Below are positions 1 through 9,165 of a DNA stretch of 34,502 nucleotides, piece after piece (positions within the stretch are counted from its first letter, which is position 1; the number at the start of each line of letters is the position of its first letter). The translations under genes were made by a program, and so were the position numbers. The notes under the pieces were generated by a model. That model saw only the letters and a program-made list of their open reading frames with translations, was not told where the DNA came from and searched no databases. The DNA lies in contig JAUXSE010000066.1 of assembly GCA_030681515.1 (NCBI GenBank), positions 1-34,502 of the forward strand. Reading direction: 5' to 3'. The DNA comes from Geothrix sp. GTDB lineage: Bacteria > Acidobacteriota > Holophagae > Holophagales > Holophagaceae.

Positions 1-131
1 ACGAGCAACCACGCCATTCCTGAAAAGACCGAACCCGAGGAAGGCAAAGATCAGAGGCCGACGAAAATCGAAGCGTAACGCGGCGTTTCAGAACTTGAAC
101 CCCACCAGCCAAACAGTCTTGGACGAAGCGG
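1..131 (-). other. Partial gene cassette at the left edge, no gene seen
   Basis: This is the attI-proximal part of a cassette that begins in the R' box of the attC at 132-255 and runs off the window. No start codon with a ribosome-binding site or credible reading frame is visible on either strand. A short stretch near position 8 resembles bases near 6049 in the cassette next to attI (about 15 of 18 bases), which may be chance. Confidence 0.5.
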
Positions 132-255
132 GCCTAACGAAGGAAGCTAACCGGCCCCGCCTGCACCGAGGCGATGAGCGGAGCCGAAATAGCAAAATGT
201 TGATAGAGAACGAAAGGCAATGCAGGCGGGGTCCGAGTTGAGCGAGAGGTTAGGC
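132..255 (-). repeat. attC site 1 (outermost complete)
   Basis: On the minus strand the R'' box GCCTAAC is at 249-255 and the R' box GTTAGGC at 132-138. They enclose the long imperfect palindrome shared by the array, with arms GCAGGCGGGG and CCCCGCCTGC. The central part is the most diverged of the ten copies. It ends the cassette that carries the reversed gene at 313-804. Confidence 0.9.
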
Positions 256-300
256 AGCAAGTGTATTCAAGATTTCTGTCACTTCTTACGATACAAGGCT

Positions 301-308
301 TAGGAGGA
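301..308 (+). promoter_or_regulatory. Strong ribosome-binding site of the reversed cassette gene
   Basis: TAGGAGGA lies 4 bases before the ATG at 313. It fixes the start, and it is unusual here because the other cassette genes have weak or no visible Shine-Dalgarno sequences. A possible -10 (TACGAT, 287-292) precedes it without a clear -35. Confidence 0.7.
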
Positions 309-312
309 ACGC

Positions 313-804
313 ATGCGTTTGATTAAGAGTCTTATTCTTGCAGGGATTGTTGCCAGTGTCGGGGTAAGTGGAGAAGTTCCGAAGACCCTTCCTGAGGCGT
401 TCTATTCAACTGCGAAGGCAGGGAAGAAAATTGATCTTCTTGTCGTGGACCCAGCTTACGACAAGTCAAAGGGGTTCATATTTGACGGTAAAGTTGATTA
501 CCAGGCCGAACTACGTGATACCGCCATGTCCGAAGCAATTGGTATTGGAGTCAAAGAAATCGCAACGCCAGGGAGCCCGTACACACTCAAGCTGACGCTG
601 GTGAATCTGACCACCGCAACATGGACAGGTTTTTTCAATTTACTTGGCAAGGCTACCGTTGAAGGGAATATTTCGGGTGCTGACGGAAAGATTCTATGTA
701 GCTTCCTCATTAAGGCGAAGGTGCCGTTAAAAGGGATGGCAGGGGTGGATCACCGTGGAACAGCAGATACTGTTGTAACGGCGATTCTCAAAGACCTGAA
801 ATAG
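313..804 (+). CDS. Secreted protein of unknown function, reversed cassette gene
   Basis: This 163-residue protein starts with a signal peptide (charged MRLIK, hydrophobic core to about residue 20) and no lipobox. The mature part alternates polar and hydrophobic residues and contains a glycine-rich segment around residues 105-125, suggesting a beta-rich periplasmic or exported domain. I do not recognise the family; a distant relation to DUF4410-type proteins is possible but not shown. It is the only gene in the array on the plus strand, opposite to its cassette's attC. It cannot therefore be read from the integron promoter and must use its own. A strong ribosome-binding site and a downstream intrinsic terminator make it a self-contained unit. 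The gene is real with good confidence; its function is unknown. Confidence 0.8.
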   Translation: MRLIKSLILAGIVASVGVSGEVPKTLPEAFYSTAKAGKKIDLLVVDPAYDKSKGFIFDGKVDYQAELRDTAMSEAIGIGVKEIATPGSPYTLKLTLVNLTTATWTGFFNLLGKATVEGNISGADGKILCSFLIKAKVPLKGMAGVDHRGTADTVVTAILKDLK

Positions 805-817
805 GCTTTCAGCATCT

Positions 818-855
818 GCAGAAGGGGCCGTCGAAGCGGCCCCTTCTGCGTTTTT
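818..855 (+). terminator. Rho-independent terminator inside a cassette
   Basis: A perfect 13-bp stem (818-830 with 837-849) and a 6-base loop are followed by five T residues at 851-855. It sits 13 bases after the stop codon of the reversed gene and before the neighbouring attC. Confidence 0.88.
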
Positions 856-881
856 GAGTCGAGAGCTATACCGCGGTTGTG

Positions 882-1005
882 GCCTAACGAATGGAGCTAA
901 CCGGCCCCGCCTGCGTCGAGACGCTAAACGAAGCCGAGATAGCGAGAAGTTGAAAGAGAGCGGAAGGCAATGCAGGCGGGGTCCGAGTTGAGCGCAGGGT
1001 TAGGG
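882..1005 (-). repeat. attC site 2
   Basis: R'' CCCTAAC is at 999-1005 and R' GTTAGGC at 882-888 (minus strand). The two boxes do not pair fully with each other, but the R'' box matches the R' box at 1695-1701 at the other end of its cassette. The R'' box supplies the TAA stop of the gene at 1000-1686. Confidence 0.92.
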
Positions 1006-1686
1006 CCATCGGGATGGAATCTCGGTATCGAGCGCGATTGTAAGCTCTGAGCAGATGGAGAGAATTTTTGACCGAGAATTAGAGACCTCGGACTGAACGG
1101 AATTGGCTAAATCTATCATTGCCTTGGTGAGTTCAACCAATTTTGAAGGTATTTGAGCAGATGGAGACCAAGTAAAGCCTAGGTAGCCATTCATGCTGAA
1201 GGCATAGATGCAACCATCGTCACCCATGTGTAAGTCTCCACTTGGCCCATACCGAGTCCGTTGGAGGGTTCGTAGCCAAACAGCGGAAATGGCCGTTGCC
1301 AGTTGTGCATCAACCGGCACTAATTTCGTGGTTGAGGGCGTCGTGGGCCTTTTTATGTGCGCAGATTTAGACCCCGGAGGGAGCGGAGGTAGAGGTGGTG
1401 ACGGCAAAAGGAAATTCTTAGAAGCCTGGTGGTATCTAATTTGAAAACCAGGCTCTCCAATACTCGATGAAGAATTGATAAGGCAAATTGAGTAATCCGG
1501 ATGAAAAGAGGGAGCGGCCATCACCCATAGAAGCACCCGACCTTTCGGCAGCAAAGCCTTGCTAAGTCGGGCGATTCCTCCATGCCCAGGGAAAAAGGGA
1601 GAGGGTTCTAGGTGATTAGGAGCGCCCTGTGAAAAAAGGAAGAACACTGGGGCGATCAAGGCGATGAAACATTTAGCTAATCGCAT
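1000..1686 (-). CDS. Hypothetical secreted cassette protein, 228 aa
   Basis: The protein has an N-terminal signal-like segment (MRLAK followed by a hydrophobic stretch to about residue 20), a proline-rich low-complexity stretch around residues 95-105 and a polar C-terminal half. The start is the ATG at 1686, nine bases from the R' box of the preceding attC, as is usual for cassette genes. The stop codon TAA is provided by the R'' box of attC 2. No family is recognised. The proline-rich linker suggests two segments: a short anchored or processed N-terminal part and a C-terminal domain of about 110 residues. It is a full-length cassette gene in the expected orientation and would be read from the integron promoter if transcription reaches this far. 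Confidence 0.7.
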   Translation of the reverse strand: MRLAKCFIALIAPVFFLFSQGAPNHLEPSPFFPGHGGIARLSKALLPKGRVLLWVMAAPSFHPDYSICLINSSSSIGEPGFQIRYHQASKNFLLPSPPLPPLPPGSKSAHIKRPTTPSTTKLVPVDAQLATAISAVWLRTLQRTRYGPSGDLHMGDDGCIYAFSMNGYLGFTWSPSAQIPSKLVELTKAMIDLANSVQSEVSNSRSKILSICSELTIALDTEIPSRWP

Positions 1687-1694
1687 TGGGATGG

Positions 1695-1818
1695 CCCTAA
1701 CGAATGAAGCTAACCGGCCCCGCCTGCACCGAGGCGCTGAACGAAGCCGAGATAGCGAGAAGCTGAGAGAGAGCGAAAGGCAATGCAGGCGGGGTCCGAG
1801 TTGAGCGGAGGGTTAGGG
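1695..1818 (-). repeat. attC site 3
   Basis: R'' CCCTAAC is at 1812-1818 and R' GTTAGGG at 1695-1701. It supplies the TAA stop of the DUF4440-like gene upstream. Confidence 0.92.
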
Positions 1819-2361
1819 CGCGGACTGTGCTTGCGTGGTTGGAGTGACACCTTCGTTGAATATCGAAAGCGCGATCTTCCATTCGCCATCCTTTTGGCGT
1901 TTGAGAATGCGGACGACCTTCATTGCAGATGATTCGACTTTTCCAGTAACGATGTGCCTAACAGTGCCGTGTATTGTTCCCCACTCTGTAGCTTCATCAC
2001 CGCAGATGGAGAGTGAATCAAAGTCCTCTCGGTAATCAAGAATTTCATAATCTGCCATTTCTGACTGACTCTTGGTGAGATAGATATCGCGCTCAGCACG
2101 AGATTTCAGCGCTGGCCCACCTGGAGGCATAAGCACTGCATTCTCGGTGAAGAGGGAGGCCAGAGTCTTAAAGTCTTTGGCTTTCGCGGCAGCGATATCT
2201 CGATTTCTAAGGCGTTGAATGGCCTGAATCGAATCATCCGAATTATGTTTCTCCGATTGCATGGCCCTGGCCTTTGTCGATGAGTTGCTCTGGCTCTCTG
2301 AGTGCACATAGGAAGAGGAAAATACGGCGGCAAAAAGAAGAACGATAGGTCTAATGTGCAT
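1813..2361 (-). CDS. Secreted DUF4440 / SnoaL-like (NTF2-fold) protein
   Basis: The 182-residue product has a signal peptide (about residues 1-21, ending SYVHS), a short polar linker and then a domain of about 125 residues with the layout of DUF4440/SnoaL-like NTF2-fold proteins. An opening helix carries the family-type pattern of alternating Asp, Ala and Lys, followed by a LASLFTENAVLMPPGGP segment, a middle region with E and D residues, and a closing strand ending in DGEWKIALSIFNEG. Such domains often bind small hydrophobic ligands or act as isomerases or hydrolases; no specific reaction can be assigned. The ATG at 2361 is 27 bases after the preceding attC. The stop TAA lies inside attC 3. 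Confidence 0.78.
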   Translation of the reverse strand: MHIRPIVLLFAAVFSSSYVHSESQSNSSTKARAMQSEKHNSDDSIQAIQRLRNRDIAAAKAKDFKTLASLFTENAVLMPPGGPALKSRAERDIYLTKSQSEMADYEILDYREDFDSLSICGDEATEWGTIHGTVRHIVTGKVESSAMKVVRILKRQKDGEWKIALSIFNEGVTPTTQAQSAP

Positions 2362-2387
2362 TGGTTGGCCTCACTGGGAACATGGAG

Positions 2388-2511
2388 CCCTAACGAATGA
2401 AGCTAACCGGCCCCGCCTGCACCGAGGCGCTGATCGAAGCCGAGGAAGCGAGATGTTGAGAGAGAGCGAAAGGTAATGCAGGCGGGGTCCGAGTTGAGCG
2501 GAGGGTTAGGG
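2388..2511 (-). repeat. attC site 4
   Basis: R'' CCCTAAC is at 2505-2511 and R' GTTAGGG at 2388-2394. It closes the toxin-antitoxin cassette. Confidence 0.92.
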
Positions 2512-2525
2512 CTCACGGGACGACC

Positions 2526-2798
2526 TTAACGCTTTGCCCATTCAAGTAAGGCTAGTTGTGCGGCTTGATTCACGGAAAGACCGGCCATCTGCGCTTTGTA
2601 GGAGAGCGCCTGCCAAATGCTGTCTTGGACCCGAAGTGAGTGGGGGCGAGTGGGCTCAGTGACCACTCCTTTGGCCGGGCGACCAGGCTTGGTAAGGCGA
2701 CCGGTGACCTGGGGCCCGAAATTCTTCTCAGCCCAGGAGGCTTCCTTCTCGATGTTGGCTTCAAGTTCGGCGAGGGTAGGACGCTTGCGAGTTGTCAT
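2526..2798 (-). CDS. BrnA-like antitoxin with ribbon-helix-helix-type C terminus
   Basis: This 90-residue protein follows the BrnT-like gene with a four-base ATGA overlap (2795-2798). It has its own strong Shine-Dalgarno AAGGAG at 2805-2810, six bases from the ATG. The N-terminal half is charged and probably disordered or toxin-binding. The C-terminal segment from about residue 52 (HSLRVQDSIWQALSYKAQMA) reads as a strand followed by helices, as in ribbon-helix-helix DNA-binding antitoxins. In BrnTA systems the antitoxin is the second gene, neutralises the RNase toxin and represses the operon; those roles are inferred from order and fold. Antitoxin identity is likely, the exact family less certain. 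Confidence 0.68.
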   Translation of the reverse strand: MTTRKRPTLAELEANIEKEASWAEKNFGPQVTGRLTKPGRPAKGVVTEPTRPHSLRVQDSIWQALSYKAQMAGLSVNQAAQLALLEWAKR

Positions 2799-3043
2799 GG
2801 CGTTCTCCTTTGACGAGATCGGATTGGAAATGCGGTGATGGGGTAAAACCCATCGTCGGTTTCAGCGAAGATCACACGGATGAGGCGACCAGTGTGGTTA
2901 GTGCCTTCACCGACGAATCTGTATGGAACCTCACTTGGGATAGAAGCCCAGTCTTCAGCGTCAAAGACAGATTCGACATCCTCTGGCTCGAGGCCATGTT
3001 CTCGGATCTTTTCTAAGTTTCGTAGTCCCCAGAGGAGGTGCAT
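2795..3043 (-). CDS. BrnT-like ribonuclease toxin
   Basis: The 82-residue protein resembles BrnT toxins. It has an opening segment in which a Trp is followed by a helix ending KIREHGLEPEDVESVFD, matching the family pattern of 'N...K..HG(I/V)..E.A..VF.D'. A central strand with an arginine (GRLIRVIFAETDDGFYPITA) follows, and the tail is basic. BrnT is an RNase E/RelE-fold toxin that inhibits translation by RNA cleavage. The start ATG at 3043 has GGGGAG five to ten bases upstream. It shares one cassette with the antitoxin gene, the usual way such pairs stabilise cassette arrays. DUF4258-type toxins are the main alternative. Confidence 0.68.
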   Translation of the reverse strand: MHLLWGLRNLEKIREHGLEPEDVESVFDAEDWASIPSEVPYRFVGEGTNHTGRLIRVIFAETDDGFYPITAFPIRSRQRRTP

Positions 3044-3115
3044 TTGAGACTCCCCATAACAAATGTATCACAATTAAATCGACGCGCAAGACCCCGCCTG
3101 AAAGAAACGAGGGAG

Positions 3116-3239
3116 CCCTAACGAATGAAGCTAACCGGCCCCGCCTGCACCGAGGCGCTGAACGAAGCCGAGGAAGCTGAATGAAGAGAAAGAGCGGAAG
3201 GCAATGCAGGCGGGGTCCGAGTTGAGCGGAGGGTTAGGC
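3116..3239 (-). repeat. attC site 5
   Basis: R'' GCCTAAC is at 3233-3239 and R' GTTAGGG at 3116-3122, not self-complementary. R'' matches the R' box at 3754-3760. The variable centre differs from its neighbours (GAAGCTGAATGAAGAG). Confidence 0.92.
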
Positions 3240-3725
3240 CGATGCTGGTTTTCGATGCGCAAAGAACGAGGTGATGCCAGAAGAAATGAGGGTGGTTGGG
3301 ATGAGAAGGAGACAATTTATGGCCACAACTTCAACAATTCTTAGCGAGAAGGTTTTGAATAGAGCAACAAGCGGGTAACTGCCAGTGATGACTTGAAGGC
3401 AATCCTTTCGGAACAACACAATAAAAATCCACAACCCAAGTATGACTGCCCAGATCACTGCGCACAGTATTTGCCAACCTATTGATCGAAGATATCCGAC
3501 TGAAGAGAGGCGGGGACCGAGGAAGAAACCGGCCCAGAGTGCCAGTAGTAAATTCGGAGCCAGGATTAATAGAAGAAATAGAAAATCGAGTGAAGTTCCC
3601 TTTGCAATTGTCATTGATCCAAAGGGCGATAAAACATAAGCGATTGGAACAGCTATTACAATGGCCCAAACGATCAAGAAGGTCTTCACGGCTATGCCTC
3701 TTCCACTTGAGGACTTTGTAGGCAT
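3234..3725 (-). CDS. Four-helix membrane protein of unknown function
   Basis: The 163-residue product has a basic N terminus (MPTKSSSGRG) and four predicted membrane helices at about residues 14-34, 47-69, 86-105 and 132-155, with few charged residues between them. It has no signal peptide or recognisable motif. The ATG at 3725 is 28 bases from the preceding attC and the TAA stop comes from the R'' box of attC 5. Small multi-pass proteins of unknown role are common cassette cargo; no transport or immunity function can be assigned from sequence. Confidence 0.75.
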   Translation of the reverse strand: MPTKSSSGRGIAVKTFLIVWAIVIAVPIAYVLSPFGSMTIAKGTSLDFLFLLLILAPNLLLALWAGFFLGPRLSSVGYLRSIGWQILCAVIWAVILGLWIFIVLFRKDCLQVITGSYPLVALFKTFSLRIVEVVAINCLLLIPTTLISSGITSFFAHRKPASA

Positions 3726-3753
3726 GATCGGGGCCCTTTCGTGAATTCGGGAG

Positions 3754-3877
3754 GCCTAACGAATGAAGCTAACCGGCCCCGCCTGCACCGAGGCGACGAA
3801 CGAAGCCGAGGAAGCGAAACGAAGAGAAAGAGCGGAAGACAGTGCGGGCGGGGTCCGAGTTGAGCGGAGGGTTAGGT
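3754..3877 (-). repeat. attC site 6
   Basis: R'' ACCTAAC is at 3871-3877 and R' GTTAGGC at 3754-3760. One long arm carries a change (GTGCGGGCGGGG instead of ATGCAGGCGGGG), leaving a mismatch in the stem. Confidence 0.92.
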
Positions 3878-4288
3878 GCGGTAACGTTCGATGAAACGGG
3901 GTTCACTTAACCCACTATACGAAATGCCTGTGCAACTTACCTTGAATGTTGCACCAAGATTGAATTGAATTTCAGCCCGTACATTTGAGGATTGGATGTC
4001 GAGGGGGATTTCGAAGACGCCGTTGATGTGCTCATCATTCACCCAAATCGACCCTCTCCAAATATCGAAAGTATCGTCATCGTGTTCAAGCGGAAGATCT
4101 GGGATTTCGGAGGATTGAACCCCGGTGAACACTAATCGCCCGATTTGGCCGCAGCCGGTACCTGGCTCTTGGAATGGGGTTCCTTCGAAGAGGTAGAGAT
4201 AAACGTACGGCAGTTCGACGACAATTTCGTCTCCATGCCTGGAGATGGTCCGAATTTGGGAGTCATGGAATTCGGCGAATGTTTTCAT
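3872..4288 (-). CDS. Hypothetical cytoplasmic cassette protein, 138 aa
   Basis: The protein begins MKTFAEFHDSQIRTI at the ATG at 4288. An in-frame GTG at 4306 would add six residues but lies in the R' box, so I prefer the ATG. No clear Shine-Dalgarno supports either start. The opening 'FHDSQI' followed by acidic and hydrophobic alternation (EIVVELPYVYLYLFEG) resembles small beta-rich proteins often annotated as immunity- or DUF-type. There are no membrane segments. The sequence has several acidic patches (EHDDDTFD) and ends FIERYRT. Its TAA stop is part of attC 6. Function unknown. Confidence 0.7.
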   Translation of the reverse strand: MKTFAEFHDSQIRTISRHGDEIVVELPYVYLYLFEGTPFQEPGTGCGQIGRLVFTGVQSSEIPDLPLEHDDDTFDIWRGSIWVNDEHINGVFEIPLDIQSSNVRAEIQFNLGATFKVSCTGISYSGLSEPRFIERYRT

Positions 4289-4304
4289 CTGGGCGGCCAG
4301 TGGC

Positions 4305-4428
4305 ACCTAACGAAAGTAGCTAACCGGCCGCGCCTGCACCGAGGCGCTGAACGGAGCCGAGGAAGCGGGAAGCTGAGAGAGAACAGAAGGCAATGCAGGC
4401 GGGGTCCGAGTTGAGCGAAGGGTTAGGC
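4305..4428 (-). repeat. attC site 7
   Basis: R'' GCCTAAC is at 4422-4428 and R' GTTAGGT at 4305-4311. It has GGCCGCGCCTGC in one arm where the other copies have GGCCCCGCCTGC, so one base pair of the stem is lost. Confidence 0.92.
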
Positions 4429-4758
4429 GCGATAGAGGCGGGCCAATATGACTTTGTGAAGTTGCGTAACGGTAATTGGAACAATGTTGTCATCGTGAGT
4501 CAAAAAAGGAAGACCCTCTGAGTGAAAGAGCCACTGATCCATTTGAATACCAAACGCATCGTTGATTGTTCCGCCCGGTGGGGCGAATGGGAAAAGATAC
4601 CGATTTTCAATGAAAGACAATAAGGCATCACCATCATCACCAGTGATCCCAAGATCGCGTTCAAGCTGGGAGTCAGATGAAATGCTCTTTCGAAGCGGTA
4701 ATGCAGTGAATTCGCGCAACAGCTCGATAACCTCGTCAATGGTGGGTTTTGGCTGCAT
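4423..4758 (-). CDS. DUF1493-like small acidic protein (acyl-carrier-like fold)
   Basis: This 111-residue protein carries the DUF1493 hallmark at about residues 32-43, a leucine-rich segment running into RDLGITGDDGDALL, preceded by a helix and followed by an aromatic-rich C-terminal half. DUF1493 proteins resemble acyl-carrier folds, but the Ser of a true phosphopantetheine site (DSL) is absent here: the position reads GDDGD. A carrier function therefore cannot be assumed. The start ATG at 4758 is close to the preceding attC, and the TAA stop lies within attC 7. The family is often found in accessory regions; function unknown. Confidence 0.68.
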   Translation of the reverse strand: MQPKPTIDEVIELLREFTALPLRKSISSDSQLERDLGITGDDGDALLSFIENRYLFPFAPPGGTINDAFGIQMDQWLFHSEGLPFLTHDDNIVPITVTQLHKVILARLYRA

Positions 4759-4765
4759 TGGCGGC

Positions 4766-4889
4766 GCCTAACGAAAGAAGCTAACCGGCCCCGCCTGCAC
4801 CGAGGCGCTGAACGGAGTCGAGGTAGCGAGAAGTTGAGAGAGAGCGGAAGGCAATGCAGGCGGGGTCCGAGTTGAGCGGAGGGTTAGGC
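4766..4889 (-). repeat. attC site 8
   Basis: R'' GCCTAAC is at 4883-4889 and R' GTTAGGC at 4766-4772. The stem arms pair fully (GCAGGCGGGG with CCCCGCCTGC). Confidence 0.92.
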
Positions 4890-4892
4890 CGA

Positions 4893-5243
4893 TCACGGTA
4901 TCTCGGTGTACTGATGGGTAGGGTGTGTTGGTGAATAACCGCAGGAAGGACAGGAGGGAGACGCCTCTTGGCGGGCAAGGAGATCTGAATGGCTACCCTT
5001 ATTCATGTAGTACCAGGCATAGCTTTTCTTGCATTCTGGGCAACGGATCGCAGCGGCCCACCATAGCAACCAAAAGATGGCGATGATGAAATAGGTGCCA
5101 GTGGTAATCGCCTCAGGCAATTTAAGGGGGTTACCGGACCAGAGCGAACTGAAGGCGAAGGTAAGTATGATCGCCAGCCATGTGAGAACCACCCATAAAG
5201 AGTACTTCCAGCCTTGGCCTGTTTGATGGGCGAACTCCTTCAT
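4893..5243 (-). CDS. Two-helix membrane protein with C-terminal zinc ribbon
   Basis: The 116-residue product has two membrane helices at about residues 14-34 and 46-66, then a cytoplasmic tail with two CxxC pairs (C68/C71 in CPEC and C98/C101 in CPSC). The CPSCG pattern is typical of a zinc ribbon. The aromatic-rich loop between the pairs contains AWYYMNKG. The ATG at 5243 has TGGAG six to ten bases upstream. Unlike five of its neighbours, the gene ends on its own TGA, a few bases before the R'' box of attC 8. The zinc ribbon could bind protein or nucleic acid at the membrane; function unknown. Confidence 0.75.
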   Translation of the reverse strand: MKEFAHQTGQGWKYSLWVVLTWLAIILTFAFSSLWSGNPLKLPEAITTGTYFIIAIFWLLWWAAAIRCPECKKSYAWYYMNKGSHSDLLARQEASPSCPSCGYSPTHPTHQYTEIP

Positions 5244-5257
5244 GGGTGCTCCAGGAG

Positions 5258-5381
5258 GCCTAACGAAGGAAGCTAACCGGCCCCGCCTGCACCGAGGCGA
5301 CGATCGAAGCCGAGGAAGCGAGATGCTGAGAGAGAGCGGAAGGCAATGCAGGCGGGGTCCGAGTTGAGCGCAGGGTTAGGC
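5258..5381 (-). repeat. attC site 9
   Basis: R'' GCCTAAC is at 5375-5381 and R' GTTAGGC at 5258-5264. It closes a cassette with no convincing gene. Confidence 0.92.
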
Positions 5382-5693
5382 CGAGACAATGGGACATGAG
5401 CTTGAAGCCTATGAATGAGAAGGCAGATCGAAGGTGAAGAAAGGATGGCAGAAGCCGCTGGGCGTGCCCAGGAGACGAAAGGCTAAATGCTGACGACCTG
5501 GCCGCCCCTTTGCTGCTGGGTGGAAGGAACCAATCGGGGCCGGTTAGATGGCCAGGGTACCGAGCCCGTGTACTGTGGCCCGCCAGGGCGACCATGAAGG
5601 CCAACGAGGGAGGACGAAGGCAACGACTATGCTTCGAGGAATGCCCGGATTCGCTGTGCTTGCGCAGCACTGAGAAAGAGCGTTTTCGAGGTG
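5382..5693 (-). other. Cassette body without a convincing gene
   Basis: These 312 bases lie between attC 9 and attC 10. An open frame crosses the whole cassette on the minus strand and another on the plus strand, but both run through the flanking attC sequences, lack a ribosome-binding site and show no protein-like pattern. Either it is a non-coding cassette (regulatory or small RNA) or it holds a very short gene I cannot recognise. Confidence 0.55.
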
Positions 5694-5817
5694 GCCTAAC
5701 GAATGAAGCTAACCGGCCCCGCCTGCGCCGAGGCGCTGAGCGGAGCCGAGATAGCGAGAAGTTGAGAGAGAGCGAAAGGCAATGCAGGCGGGGTCCGAGT
5801 TGAGCGGAGGGTTTGGC
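5694..5817 (-). repeat. attC site 10 (next to attI) with altered R'' box
   Basis: R' GTTAGGC is at 5694-5700, but the R'' box at 5811-5817 reads GCCAAAC instead of GCCTAAC. This is the only copy with such a change. It removes the R''/R' match across its cassette and also the TAA that ends several other cassette frames. Confidence 0.9.
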
Positions 5818-6188
5818 GCGCCACCACGCTGGCACCCATTCGAGCAGGCGAAACGCATGGACATGCCAGAGCGATGGGGATGCCGATTGGATGAGGACGG
5901 GAATTCATACCACCGAGCCCAAAAGGAGAAAACCGAATTGGATTGCACCAAGACCTGAGCAAATGGGGCCGAAAACGTGGGCTAAATCAGGGCGTTGGTA
6001 GGGACGAATGAGATTTCACCCATTATGCCAGGGGAACGGCGTGGCGTTGTGAGAGCGCAATCACGCCATTCAGGAGAAGCCGGAGTTCGCTAGACCCAGG
6101 GCCAAGCGACGGTAGAGGCCAAACAGACGGAGCCACACGGAAATTGAGAAGGAGATCAAAAGGCCAACTGAATGAGAAGCCCGAAAGC
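5818..6188 (-). other. First cassette body next to attI, no convincing gene
   Basis: This would be the most recently inserted cassette. On the minus strand two overlapping open frames run into attC 10 (starts near 5951 and 5962). On the plus strand a 62-codon frame begins at 5813 inside the attC. None has a ribosome-binding site or recognisable protein features. The segment may be non-coding cargo or a decayed gene. Confidence 0.5.
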
Positions 6189-6195
6189 GCCTAAC
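6189..6195 (-). other. attI: attI core recombination site
   Basis: On the minus strand the bases read AATTTAA followed by GTTAGGC, closely resembling the end of attI of class 1 integrons (AACAAA before GTTAGGC). It is the only GTTAGGC on the intI side of the array that is not part of an attC repeat, and it lies 218 bases upstream of the intI start. Crossover is expected between the G and the first T. Further integrase-binding repeats within attI could not be defined. Confidence 0.8.
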
Positions 6196-6207
6196 TTAAA
6201 TTGGACG

Positions 6208-6264
6208 GTGGGGTTGGTGGGGGGGGAGTTCGCCTAGGTCGGGGGCGGGGTGGGCGGTGGGGGG
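6208..6264 (+). other. G-rich tracts with G-quadruplex potential beside attI
   Basis: The plus strand holds runs of 4, 8, 5, 4, 3 and 6 guanines. Bases 6241-6264 fit the canonical four-run pattern (G5, G4, G3, G6 with loops of one to four bases). The tract lies between the attI core and the intI promoter. Confidence 0.6.
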
Positions 6265-6302
6265 TTCGTGGCCGGTGGAATGGGCGGCCTTTGGTTGGGG
6301 GC

Positions 6303-6330
6303 TTGACTGGCGAAAAAAAAACGATAGATT
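6303..6330 (+). promoter_or_regulatory. Probable intI promoter
   Basis: A -35 TTGACT (6303-6308) and a -10 TAGATT (6325-6330) are separated by 16 bases that include nine consecutive adenines (6313-6321). The intI ATG is about 75 bases downstream of the expected start. No LexA-type operator (CTGT-N8-ACAG) is visible, and the leftward cassette promoter could not be identified with confidence. Confidence 0.6.
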
Positions 6331-6412
6331 GAGTCATCTGCCGGGTATTCGAGTCGAGGTGTTGATCCGAGTTTAGCGCGATAGGCGGTCTGTGGCGATG
6401 GGAGCAGAGGCC

Positions 6413-7423
6413 ATGCTTGAAGGGAATGGGCAGACGGGTGGAAGGCGGATGGCGGGGGTGGGGCAGCCCCCGAAGCTGCTGGATCAGTTGCGGGAGAGCC
6501 TGCGGGTCCGGCGCTACAGCCTGCGGACCGAGGATGCCTATGTGGACTGGGCGCGGCGGTTCATCCTCTTCCACGGCAAGCGGCATCCCGGGGAGATGGG
6601 GGCGCCCGAGGTGGAGGCCTTCCTGACCCACCTGGCGGTGGACCGGCACGTGGCGCCGTCCACGCAGAACCAGGCGAAGGCGGCCCTGCTCTTCATGTAC
6701 CGGCACCTGTTGGGAGGGGACCTGCCCTGGCTTGCCGAGGTGGTTCAGGCCAAACGCGCCCCGCGGTTGCCCGTCGTGCTCACGCCGGGGGAGGTGCGCG
6801 TCCTCCTGGATCAGATGGAAGGCGTGATGGCCCTGGTGGCCCGGCTGCTGTACGGAACGGGCATGCGGTTGATGGAGGTGCTGCGGCTGCGGGTGAAGGA
6901 TCTGGAATTCGAGCGCCGGGAGCTGGTGGTCCGCGATGGGAAGGGCGGCAAGGACCGGGTCACCATGCTTCCGGATCGCCTGATCGAGCCCCTGCGGGCC
7001 CATCTGGAGAAGGCGCGGGCCCTCCACGAGCGGGATCTGGCGGAGGGCTTCGGGGAGGTCTTTCTGCCGGATGCGCTGGCGGAGAAGTTCAAGGCGGCGC
7101 CCCGGGCCTGGGGCTGGCAGTGGGTGTTTCCTTCGGGCCTGCGCTCGGTGGATCCGCGCTCGGGCGTCACGCGCCGCCATCACTTGCAGCCGGAGAGCGT
7201 GCAGAAGGCCGTGCGGCTGGCGGCCCGGGCGGGGGAACTGGTCAAGCCTGTCACGCCCCATGTGCTGCGCCACTCGTTCGCGACGCATCTGCTGACGGCG
7301 GGCTACGATATCCGCACCGTGCAGGAGCTGCTGGGCCACAAGGACGTGGCCACCACCATGATCTATACCCACGTGCTGAACCGCGGCGGACGGGGCGTGG
7401 CGAGCCCCCTGGACGGGCTGTGA
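6413..7423 (+). CDS. intI: Integron integrase (tyrosine recombinase)
   Basis: IntI catalyses cassette insertion and excision between attI and attC sites. The 336-residue protein matches the IntI family along its length: an N-terminal SAM-like DNA-binding domain ([20 protein letters not shown]), then a catalytic domain with R152 (GTGMR), K177 (GKGGKDR), H283 and R286 ([12 protein letters not shown]), H309 (LLGHKDV) and nucleophile Y318 (MIYTH). All are offset by six from class 1 IntI numbering. The IntI-specific insertion before the H-x-x-R box is present ([13 protein letters not shown]). I chose the ATG at 6413, preceded by GGAG eight bases upstream. A GTG at 6392 and an ATG at 6449 are alternatives. 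The gene is intact and divergent from the cassettes. Confidence 0.97.
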
Positions 7424-7545
7424 TACCGGTTCGCGTTCAAAAATGAAGGATCCACCACGGAGGCGCGGAGCATGGGCTACGCCGATACACGAGACATACC
7501 GGCATCTCGTGGTGGATCTCTACCTTTGACGGCGGACTGGTATCA
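7421..7545. repeat. Palindromic intergenic element, copy 1 (complete)
   Basis: The 125-base interval is an imperfect inverted repeat with arms of about 40 bases. TGATACCGGT at 7421-7430 pairs with ACTGGTATCA at 7536-7545, and GATCCACCACG near 7449 pairs with CGTGGTGGATC near 7509. The TGA stop codons of the two convergent genes, intI and the M28 peptidase, form its outermost bases. The left arm recurs at 12433-12489. As RNA it would fold into a long hairpin in either direction and could act as a bidirectional terminator. Confidence 0.8.
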
Positions 7546-9165
7546 GCGGGCGGCCTTGAAGGCGGGCCGGGTGGGGGCGTTGGCGATGGCCTGGCCGAGA
7601 TCATAGGTGAACTGGGCCTGCTGCGCCATGCCGCGCAGATCCCAGCCCGGGTCGTACTCGTCGGTGATCTGGTGGTAGCGCTTTCCGAAGGCGGCGCCTC
7701 GGGCCTGCAGGGCGGGGATATCGGTTCCGATGTAGTCGCGGCCGCCGCCCACGGACAGGGCGGGCACGCCGGCCTGCACGAAGCTGTAGTGGTCGGAGCG
7801 GAAGTAGCCGCCGGCGGTATCGGGCCGTTCCGGGGCCACGCGGAGGCCCGAGGCCTTGGCCACGGCGGCGCCCAGTTCGCCCAGGGTGCTGCGGTCGCCG
7901 AAGGGCAGGCCGATGTCGCGGGTGGGGGCCACGAAGTTGAGGCTGTCCAGATTGAGATCCGCCGCGGTCTTGGCCAGGGGCCATAGGGGATCCGCCGCGT
8001 AGGCCCTGGATCCGAGCAGGCCCTGCTCCTCGGCGCAGACGAACAGGAACATCTGGCTGCGCTTCGCGGGGGTGGATAGGGCGGCCTGGGCCATGGCCAG
8101 CAGGGCCGCGCAGCCCGAGGCGTTGTCCACGGCCCCGTTGTAGATGGCGTCCGCGCCTTGGCTCGGGTGCGCGTCTGCGCCGGGGCCGGGATGCGTGTCC
8201 ACGGCGGGCGCGGCGCCCCTGCCCAGGTGATCCCAGTGGGCGGAGTAGATCACGACCTCGTGCTTCAGCGCGGGATCGGTGCCGGGCACGACGCCCGCCA
8301 CGTTGAACTGCTCCACGGTGCGCACGGTGCTGTGGAGGCTGCCCTTCAGGGTGAGATCCAGCGGGACGGGCCGGAAGTCGCGGCGCTGGGCCCGGGCCCG
8401 CAGGGCGTCGAGATCCTGGCCGCCCTGTTTCACCAGGGCGCGGGCCACATCCTCCGTCACCCATCCCTGGAAGGGTGTTTCTTCCGGCCCCTGGGCCAGG
8501 GAGAAGCGCTCGGCGTCCCAGCCGTTGCGCACCACGGGCCAGCCATAGCTGGCGGAGGCCGTGGTGTGGACCAGCAGCACGCCGGCGGCGCCATGCCGAG
8601 CGGCCATTTCGAACTTGGTGGTCCAGCGGCCGTACTGGCTCAGGTTCGCGCCGTCGAAGAGGCCGGGATCCGCGGCCGTGGGCGCGGGCTCGTTCACCAG
8701 CAGGAGCAGGACCTTGCCGCGCATATCCAGGCCCTTGTAGTCGTCCCAACGGTCGCCGGGCGCATCAATGCCGAAGCCCGCGAAGACCACGGGCGCGTCG
8801 AAGGCCTGCTCGGCCCTGGCGATGCCGGATCCATAGACGATCTCGGATCCGAACTTGGGGGTGGCGCAGGCGCCGCCGCCCATGAAGCTGATGGTGCCGC
8901 GGCCCACCAGGGTCTGCAGGCCCAGCAGCGATACCGGCTGGCGGTACGAGCCTGCCTTGGCCGGTGTCAGTCCCAGGGCCTGGAGCTGGGTTTCGAGGTA
9001 GCGCACGGTGAGATCGGCCCCGCGCTGGCCCGTGCCCCGGCCCTCCAGCAGATCGTCCGCCAGGAAGGCCAGGTGGGCGCGGAGGGGCGCTTCCTGGACC
9101 CTCGGTCCCGTCGGGGCCTGGGCCAGAAGGCTGGCGGTGGCCAGGACGCAGAGCAGGACACGCAT
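7543..9165 (-). CDS. Secreted M28-family zinc aminopeptidase with PA domain
   Basis: The 540-residue precursor has a signal peptide (MRVLLCVLATASLLAQA) followed by a segment typical of M28 exopeptidases (HLAFLADDLLEGRGTGQRG). A protease-associated (PA) insert with the pattern RWDDYKGLDMRGKVLLLLVN spans about residues 140-260. The catalytic part carries the co-catalytic zinc set: H310 and D312 in SAHWDH, D347 in AVDNASG, the E379-E380 pair in CAEEQG, an Asp in LNLDS and a His in RSDHYSF. Such enzymes remove N-terminal residues from peptides in the periplasm or outside the cell. The ATG at 9165 has CGGAG six to ten bases upstream. It is convergent with intI and otherwise stands alone. Confidence 0.93.
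   Translation of the reverse strand: MRVLLCVLATASLLAQAPTGPRVQEAPLRAHLAFLADDLLEGRGTGQRGADLTVRYLETQLQALGLTPAKAGSYRQPVSLLGLQTLVGRGTISFMGGGACATPKFGSEIVYGSGIARAEQAFDAPVVFAGFGIDAPGDRWDDYKGLDMRGKVLLLLVNEPAPTAADPGLFDGANLSQYGRWTTKFEMAARHGAAGVLLVHTTASASYGWPVVRNGWDAERFSLAQGPEETPFQGWVTEDVARALVKQGGQDLDALRARAQRRDFRPVPLDLTLKGSLHSTVRTVEQFNVAGVVPGTDPALKHEVVIYSAHWDHLGRGAAPAVDTHPGPGADAHPSQGADAIYNGAVDNASGCAALLAMAQAALSTPAKRSQMFLFVCAEEQGLLGSRAYAADPLWPLAKTAADLNLDSLNFVAPTRDIGLPFGDRSTLGELGAAVAKASGLRVAPERPDTAGGYFRSDHYSFVQAGVPALSVGGGRDYIGTDIPALQARGAAFGKRYHQITDEYDPGWDLRGMAQQAQFTYDLGQAIANAPTRPAFKAAR

Follow-up and report, generated by a model that had tools for sequence, protein, structure and literature searches.

Putative distributed integron of Geothrix: attI-headed cassette arrays without an integrase gene and a mobile attI cassette

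The stretch of DNA analysed here (the window) is the entire contig G000:C11, a draft piece of 34,502 bases, and carries a probably chromosomal integron with its integrase gene intI, the site attI and a row of cassettes, each closed by an attC site. Comparison across 47 genomes of the Geothrix genus (labelled G000 onward) points to an arrangement wider than this single platform: attC arrays without intI, here called orphan arrays, stand behind attI sites of their own, and a cassette that ends in a complete attI is found in seven genomes. One IntI probably serves several attI-headed arrays in trans, and the mobile attI cassette can probably seed new ones. With less assurance, we lean towards the fuller reading of a distributed integron, in which a single trans-acting IntI and an attI cassette that seeds core-like sites would let platforms multiply without copying intI. 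The argument refers to three features of the window:

6392..7423, plus strand: intI, integron integrase of 343 amino acids (start GTG 6392; other possible starts ATG 6398 and ATG 6413)
6188..6264, minus strand: attI, core G/TTAGGC read leftwards at ~6191 (match of attI model R2)
7543..9165, minus strand: M28-type peptidase gene, chromosomal anchor (named by reading, without a family search)

Orphan arrays and whole cassettes shared between arrays

The anatomy of attI and attC, and the attI-like sites that head intI-less arrays, are established at the level of sequence. Three genomes that are complete or in two contigs (G008, G015 and G018) have one match each above the cut-off of the integron integrase family TIGR02249, yet 3, 4 and 5 attI matches, respectively. 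Within the stretches examined, 44 of 77 attC in G008, 57 of 78 in G018 and 42 of 63 in G015 lie outside the intI array. A large attC array of G008 is located at 1528-1547 kb, compared with intI at 581 kb, and large arrays of G018 lie at C1:846-861 kb and C1:1577-1596 kb, with intI on C2. The heads of these large arrays carry the same TAGGCGAAC..GTCCAATTYAAAGTTAGG site as is found beside intI.

The attI model R2, built from 35 rows (22 intI-side and 13 others), returned 62 attI-like places in 26 of the 47 genomes; judged by position, 22 of the places adjoin intI and the other 40 stand apart from it. The 25 orphan heads examined comprise 24 of these 40 along with one decayed site found separately. 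Nineteen of them are absent from the R2 training rows and 17 match R2 at E 2e-8 or better. Attachment sites of the attC type follow on the same strand 176-2072 bp downstream in 23 heads, the other two being at contig ends, and no attC is present upstream in 24 of them within the stretch examined (the remaining head has an attC 5.2 kb away). The stretches of the 25 heads contain no IntI-like gene, except for one tyrosine recombinase of 34% identity. In the 12 orphan arrays listed, all 195 attC share one orientation, away from attI. Twelve orphan arrays, having 3-35 attC and no intI within the stretches examined, are CALINs (clusters of attC sites lacking integron-integrases) in the sense of two or more attC with intI absent from the neighbourhood, and some other orphan heads are followed by a single attC only.

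A GGTCTGCCCATTC-like motif is found repeatedly in the leaders of orphan arrays and in attI cassettes, and its reverse complement occurs at the 5′ end of intI (loci L142, L150, L202 and L157, and window 6420-6450); it may be a further binding site of IntI or of a regulator. The 124-nt attC are interspersed with short ones of ~66 nt that have no long terminal loop, the first directly behind an orphan attI; one of these is located at G018:C1:1576662-1576727, and there are other matches of 65-66 nt.

One of the orphan heads is conserved between species in spite of unrelated first cassettes. It lies behind a TPR gene in three species (G007, G008 and G018), where the 139 bp of attI and leader are 88-93% identical, the leader start having been placed at a motif common to all three, which favours leader conservation. 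The adjoining gene is 91-93% identical and the spacer 58-66%. The first cassettes of this locus are 44-48% identical, against shuffles with a mean of 44% and a maximum of 50%.

Identical whole cassettes are found in separate arrays of the same genome. Among 429 cassette bodies, 27 same-genome pairs pass a threshold of at least 75% identity over at least 70% of the length. Pairs at 99.5-100% identity link the intI array with orphan arrays twice in G008 and five times in G015, and one further G015 pair links two orphan arrays. The bodies are identical in nine of 11 pairs checked. To the left, identity ends 7-11 nt out, at the GTTAGG core of the preceding attC, in 10 of the 11, and to the right it spans the whole own attC and ends at its core in eight. 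Partner cassettes stand in different order in the two arrays. Being bounded by cores and non-collinear, these identities indicate the cut expected of IntI rather than crossing over. Homologous recombination through similar attC repeats could nevertheless be imagined as what spreads cassettes, given that attC copies are ~90% alike and could support crossing over, that in one of the 11 pairs the shared sequence includes 42 nt of the upstream attC and that identity ends inside the own attC in three. Crossovers should, however, end anywhere in an attC and not so regularly at the upstream core and behind an entire own attC, and they do not account for matched cassettes that are non-collinear between arrays; we judge recombination of this kind very improbable. 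Cassettes that are 97-100% identical are also common to different Geothrix species (G005/G046, G008/G046/G010, G009/G046 and others), with 51 between-species pairs listed at up to 100% identity, which suggests exchange between Geothrix species.

The attI cassette, the TPR site and the M28 locus

A mobile attI cassette and an occupied and an empty TPR site are seen by alignment of the genomes. The cassette measures 214-215 bp, contains no sizeable gene, starts with TTAGGCCGCCCAACC and ends in a complete attI (..CGTCCAARTCTAG/TTAGG). Eleven copies with a resolved left boundary were found in seven genomes (G001, G003, G007, G009, G010, G018 and G046), four directly behind attI and seven behind attC, one of the 11 being an older variant; two more copies run off contig ends. 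The sequences downstream of the cassette differ in most cases. The sequence that precedes attI within the cassette agrees with the TPR heads at 117 of 150 positions in G007, 99 of 144 in G008 and 82 of 114 in G018, far above shuffles, and is at chance level against all four intI heads tested. Some other orphan heads match this part partially, and the M28 heads treated below do so over short stretches. The heads of G015 and G019 match the cassette over most of its length, but their left end has no clear core and they were rejected as clean cassette insertions.

In G007 and G008, the match to the attI cassette begins exactly at TTAGGC/TTAAAC, at the position of the TPR stop codon. The TPR gene is matched in 22 of the 47 genomes, three of which carry the array. 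In G010, G001 and G005, the sequence known from beyond the array tail of G008 and G018 starts 72-115 bp behind the TPR stop, so that the site is empty in these three sister species, and G010 reads G/TTAGGC at the stop.

In the mechanism we propose, IntI would excise cassettes as folded attC bottom strands and insert them at the adjacent attI, so that an array would grow leftwards from attI. The IntI of the single platform would act in trans on all attI and attC of the chromosome, and intI-less arrays would keep their own attI and leader as cassettes move between arrays. The attI cassette, bounded by IntI cores, would be excised and inserted like any other cassette. If its target were a core-like site that is not in an array, for example the TPR stop codon, it would become a new attI at which cassettes would then accumulate. 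We infer that IntI is the enzyme responsible, that it acts in trans today and that the direction runs from cassette to new array head; the reverse is a possibility, namely that an orphan head was captured as a cassette.

Insertion by IntI outside att sites (attG) is known, and the orphan arrays could be ordinary off-target (attC x attG) insertions whose head site is an unrelated conserved element, for instance a promoter. Such insertion is mentioned in the accessible parts of PMC12901181 and PMC12444791, cassettes without open reading frames (ORFs) but with promoters are reported in an excerpt of PMC11014356, and a TAAAAT-like hexamer is present in the leader. The conserved block, though, stops exactly at a GTTAGG core with turnover beyond it, its head order TAGGCGAAC..GTCCAA..GTTAGG is the same as in the intI-side attI, and as a cassette it ends in the GTTAGG core in the 11 bounded copies. 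This explanation is therefore very improbable in our estimation. A role of the attI cassette as promoter carrier was discarded as well, a scan of one region for promoters not being above shuffles.

A weightier alternative, which we still judge unlikely overall, is that the orphan arrays are former complete integrons minus intI, with attI as a remnant and with shared cassettes captured separately or before the loss. That intI-less arrays are degraded integrons is, as a general idea, in print (PMC9024848, in excerpt), and a short GGTCTGCCCATTC-type leader motif resembles DNA within the 5′ end of intI. The alternative bears on the locus of the window itself. A flank behind intI is common to 26 of 35 loci (20 of 29 after dropping six twice-entered genomes), but the intI of the window is not at this flank and adjoins the M28-type peptidase gene, which has a match in 40 of the 47 genomes. 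The common flank of G000 is on contig C59, and no intI, attI or attC is present in the 20 kb examined there.

The M28 locus was viewed in 30 genomes, at most ~1.5 kb behind the gene. Both intI and attI are present in one (the window). Six carry attI without intI (G001, G002, G003, G010, G026 and G046), one a weak attI match and attC (G015), four attC only (G004, G005, where it is weak, G008 and G018) and one a decayed intI fragment and attC (G044); nothing is found in 16, and one has no sequence there (G025). In G021, viewed separately, an intI 73% identical to that of the window stands at the M28 locus. Thus the place occupied by intI in the window is taken in six sister genomes by an intI-less array headed by attI, a point missed by the first-pass annotation of this DNA. 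The mix of intI (window and G021), decayed intI (G044) and orphan attI (six others) makes loss of intI at this locus a fair alternative. The first cassettes of a single pair of M28 loci were compared and are unrelated (43%).

Loss of intI accounts less well for the remaining observations. At the TPR heads, the leaders agree with the attI cassette rather than with the intI platforms, none of the three TPR-locus stretches examined contains intI, and the head there stays conserved despite complete turnover of cassettes. Cassettes that are 100% identical in genomes with one intI imply recent movement.

Several observations weigh against the service of orphan arrays by one IntI and their seeding by the attI cassette. 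At the M28 locus (G001, G010 and G046), attI and leader are 83-88% identical compared with 94-97% for the gene; outside attI, the similarity of the M28 heads to the attI cassette covers no more than 61 nt and, in two of five, is hardly better than with shuffles, so that an origin from the attI cassette is not shown for them. The empty TPR sites of G001 and G005 have no core GTT. Support from R2 is weak for eight of the 25 heads (E above 2e-8, or found only in a separate search), three of them being >1 kb from attC. Decay of attC towards the tail is significant in just four of 11 orphan arrays, several of them cut by the stretch examined. Exchange was testable in only three near-complete genomes, and transfer in trans is itself deduced from sequence. 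For the G018 array at C1:845 kb, which belongs to an island next to a tRNA gene, there is no clean empty site. Finally, G000 has a single attI match genome-wide and one decayed attI remnant, which means that the distributed state is not demonstrated in the window's own genome.

As to these last two places, the attI-headed array of G018 (C1:844.5-865.3 kb) is part of an island of 20.7 kb that also contains a decayed phage-type integrase and is absent from G008, and the adjacent tRNA is by reading a probable tRNA-Ser; the idea that every orphan head is a clean cassette insertion was rejected on account of this array. In G000, a decayed attI end followed by attC at C21:89764-89803 is probably a dying orphan array.

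The integron of the window and its host genome

The window is confirmed as a canonical integron of Geothrix, probably of the sedentary chromosomal kind. On the minus strand, the order is the attI core at ~6191 and then cassettes each closed by an attC of the form GCCTAAC..TCAACTCGGA..CCGGTTAGC..GTTAGGC; attI thus stands between intI and the first cassette, and intI is divergent from the array. The attI of the window, one of the 35 rows from which R2 was built, can be aligned with its counterparts at 21 other Holophagaceae intI loci. Ten attC (133-5818) were found by model R1:

5695..5818, minus strand: attC 1, nearest intI
5259..5382, minus strand: attC 2
4767..4890, minus strand: attC 3
4306..4429, minus strand: attC 4
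3755..3878, minus strand: attC 5
3117..3240, minus strand: attC 6
2389..2512, minus strand: attC 7
1696..1819, minus strand: attC 8
883..1006, minus strand: attC 9
133..256, minus strand: attC 10, farthest from intI; array continues into contig end

By alignment, they appear as a 126-nt direct repeat at 131-5818, all ten copies in one orientation and 87-95% identical to a reference copy. The ten copies and their single orientation agree with the first-pass annotation, whose wording "nearly identical" is slightly too strong for this range. The same annotation had made its reading depend on the repeats fitting attC secondary-structure models, and here shuffles, pair counts and the covariance model concur. 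Against 200 dinucleotide shuffles, one attC copy folds with z -3.60 and -3.73 for the two strands, and 1 of 200 shuffles on one strand and 0 of 200 on the other fold as well. In 19 attC copies of the own genome, two helices have standard pairs in 94.3% of cells, a count biased favourably since one of the counted rows had supplied the structure; sliding the partner columns by 1-3 lowers it to 24-49%. By alignment, folding, pair counts and model R1, the sites show the R''/L''/L'/R' architecture. The unpaired extra bases sit in the R''-L'' half on the minus strand, which implies that attC reads leftwards, away from intI.

The integrase of the window is a tyrosine recombinase of the integron subfamily (TIGR02249 integrase_gron, 458 bits against a cut-off of 265), and both PF00589 and PF13495 match it. 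It is intact as proposed, with all catalytic residues in place (R159, H290, R293, H316 and Y325), and the six-residue offset from the class 1 integrase numbers noted before holds when counting from ATG 6413, seven codons on. Among the best 80 of 233 relatives, the nearest are from Geothrix and Holophagaceae (75-87% identity), followed by beta- and gammaproteobacterial ones, in keeping with the Holophagae-type host that had been suggested. In nine same-genus genomes, the last 250 IntI residues are identical to those of a named Geothrix strain; the host genus is thus presumably Geothrix. A tree of 58 rows places the window IntI inside a 30-row clade made up exclusively of Acidobacteriota or same-genus rows (support 99/96). 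The expected lineage-specific clade therefore exists, but it does not hold the whole genus: seven same-genus rows (G012, G017, G021, G029, the second IntI of G030, G036 and G038) fall outside, with Proteobacteria, as do two further rows from Acidobacteriota, and Geothrix thus has additional IntI lines. The intI of G003 is apparently split, with the last 22 residues at the common intI place (C3:529.2 kb) and residues 2-329 ~29 kb off (557.6-558.5 kb), as if an element had inserted near the 3′ end.

The remaining features of the window are a candidate promoter and cassette contents:

6303..6330, plus strand: candidate intI promoter TTGACT-16-TAGATT (consensus scan, 1 found against 0.3 expected; no evidence of function)
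4893..5243, minus strand: cassette ORF, 116 amino acids, no family
4423..4758, minus strand: cassette ORF, 111 amino acids, no family
3872..4306, minus strand: cassette ORF, 144 amino acids, no family
3234..3725, minus strand: cassette ORF, 163 amino acids, no family
2526..3043, minus strand: two-ORF cassette (ORFs 2795-3043 and 2526-2798), possible BrnT/BrnA-like toxin-antitoxin pair
1813..2361, minus strand: cassette ORF, 182 amino acids, DUF4440 (SnoaL-like; PF14534, 40.8 bits against a cut-off of 25.2)
1000..1686, minus strand: cassette ORF, 228 amino acids, no family
313..804, plus strand: cassette ORF, 163 amino acids, facing against the array

Among nine cassettes with an ORF of interest, chosen by eye, eight read in the direction of the array, the exception being 313-804. 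The BrnT/BrnA label is tentative, the BrnT_toxin match (E 5.6e-5, 23.8 bits) being below the Pfam cut-off of 34.5; an 87% identical body of this cassette is located in a two-attC cluster at G000:C30:285.5-286.1 kb. The cassettes were dismissed as carriers of defence genes, none of the nine cassette ORFs having matched PADLOC. No match to an Rfam family was found within the window. Similarly, the attC repeat has no match in either a plasmid or a phage collection, and spread of the array via plasmids or phages was set aside.

The host genome G000 has 3,197,944 bases in 66 contigs and is called 99.5% complete. Since the window is the whole contig, the array runs into a contig end rather than a window edge. 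The covariance model gives 20 attC matches in G000, half of them in the window and the other ten on contigs C1, C5, C21, C30, C34, C38 and C60, the latter mostly decayed singletons, and a sequence search gives 22 copies, i.e. two further partial ones; several copies outside the window have damaged cores. The proposal of a large superintegron-like platform finds no support in these counts: the window array has ten attC up to the contig end, not the tens to hundreds of cassettes in one array of a superintegron, and with 20 attC genome-wide no superintegron is shown for the host, although repeats may have been lost in assembly and the array, cut by the contig end, may be longer. The attC family itself is shared by the genus, with model matches in 46 of the 47 genomes in a search of the best 75 scored candidates per genome. 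Searched singly at E up to 0.1, sister genomes G008 and G018 hold 84 and 93 attC matches. The intI array of G030 (C1:705-719 kb) has many short (~108-nt) attC and five ~365-bp cassette bodies that are 79-89% alike, possibly a family multiplied within the array.

Geothrix arrays and known integron systems

Integrons are usually described as one platform with an integrase, one attI and one array. Outside class 1, attI is poorly described and is not sought by the standard finder (accessible part of PMC9024848), so that arrays headed by attI would be classed as degraded CALINs. Should intI-less arrays be live and attI move as a cassette, many CALINs may be working platforms, one integrase could serve cassettes stored across the chromosome, and culturable Geothrix would allow a direct test of how CALINs originate. 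The attI-headed arrays and the attI cassette are what is new here; trans action on intI-less arrays has already been proposed in print. In the openly licensed literature, from which subscription journals are mostly missing, we found neither attI-headed CALINs nor a full-attI cassette across species, nothing on integron attC in Holophaga and, for Geothrix integrons, only work on class 1 integrons in sewage as far as the available portions go.

Like the sedentary chromosomal integrons of Vibrio, Xanthomonas and others, the Geothrix integron has intI, attI, a uniform attC family, a single array direction, mostly unknown cassette genes and, in most of the genus, an IntI at a conserved chromosomal place. 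It is unlike them in having several more attI-headed arrays on the same chromosome. Its taxon-specific attC family accords with the Acidobacteria-specific attC model, Acidobacteria being among 11 taxa with specific models in PMC8352920, where the accessible text has 0 occurrences of Geothrix and Holophaga.

For arrays of the V. cholerae type, the leading-strand template is reported to carry the attC bottom strands (PMC11023631, in excerpt), whereas the attC arrays of G008 mostly oppose the replication fork. In this genome, dnaA, dnaN, gyrB and gyrA (named by reading) are at position 1 and the sign of the GC skew switches between 1.63 and 1.79 Mb, several samples being near zero; five of the six attC loci, among them the two large ones, oppose the fork and the 3180 kb locus does not. 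Of the G015 loci, intI and one orphan array oppose the fork, one array runs with it and one is too near the terminus to be assigned. Flank GC skew indicates the same direction in 21 of 25 orphan heads and in 11 of 11 intI heads (12 given, one with a short flank dropped), counts that include orthologous loci and hence are not independent.

With CALINs, the orphan arrays share attC without intI, some of them at places conserved between species. According to the part of PMC12444791 available, Xanthomonas CALINs also lie at places conserved between species and are mobilised in trans by IntI, and an excerpt of PMC8618304 proposes off-target insertion by a distant IntI for CALINs. The CALIN definition encountered in the accessible texts does not include attI. 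The Geothrix orphan arrays, unlike CALINs, are headed by attI, are as large as the intI array and appear to have exchanged whole cassettes with it recently.

The attI cassette is closest in kind to the Delta-attI-type cassettes of class 1 and 2 integrons, which end in an attI-type site instead of attC and are moved by IntI (PMC12901181, in excerpt); an attI-type site likewise replaces attC at the end of the 11 bounded copies. The same excerpt describes cassettes in which a resistance gene is mostly followed by 14-18 nt of attI, and a single rare case with full attI1, excised at 100%. Rather than a truncated attI behind a gene, the Geothrix unit of ~215 bp has a full-length attI, its conserved block entire, with a conserved leader and no room for a sizeable gene; it is found in seven genomes and has a homologue, full-length at the TPR site, at the head of orphan arrays.

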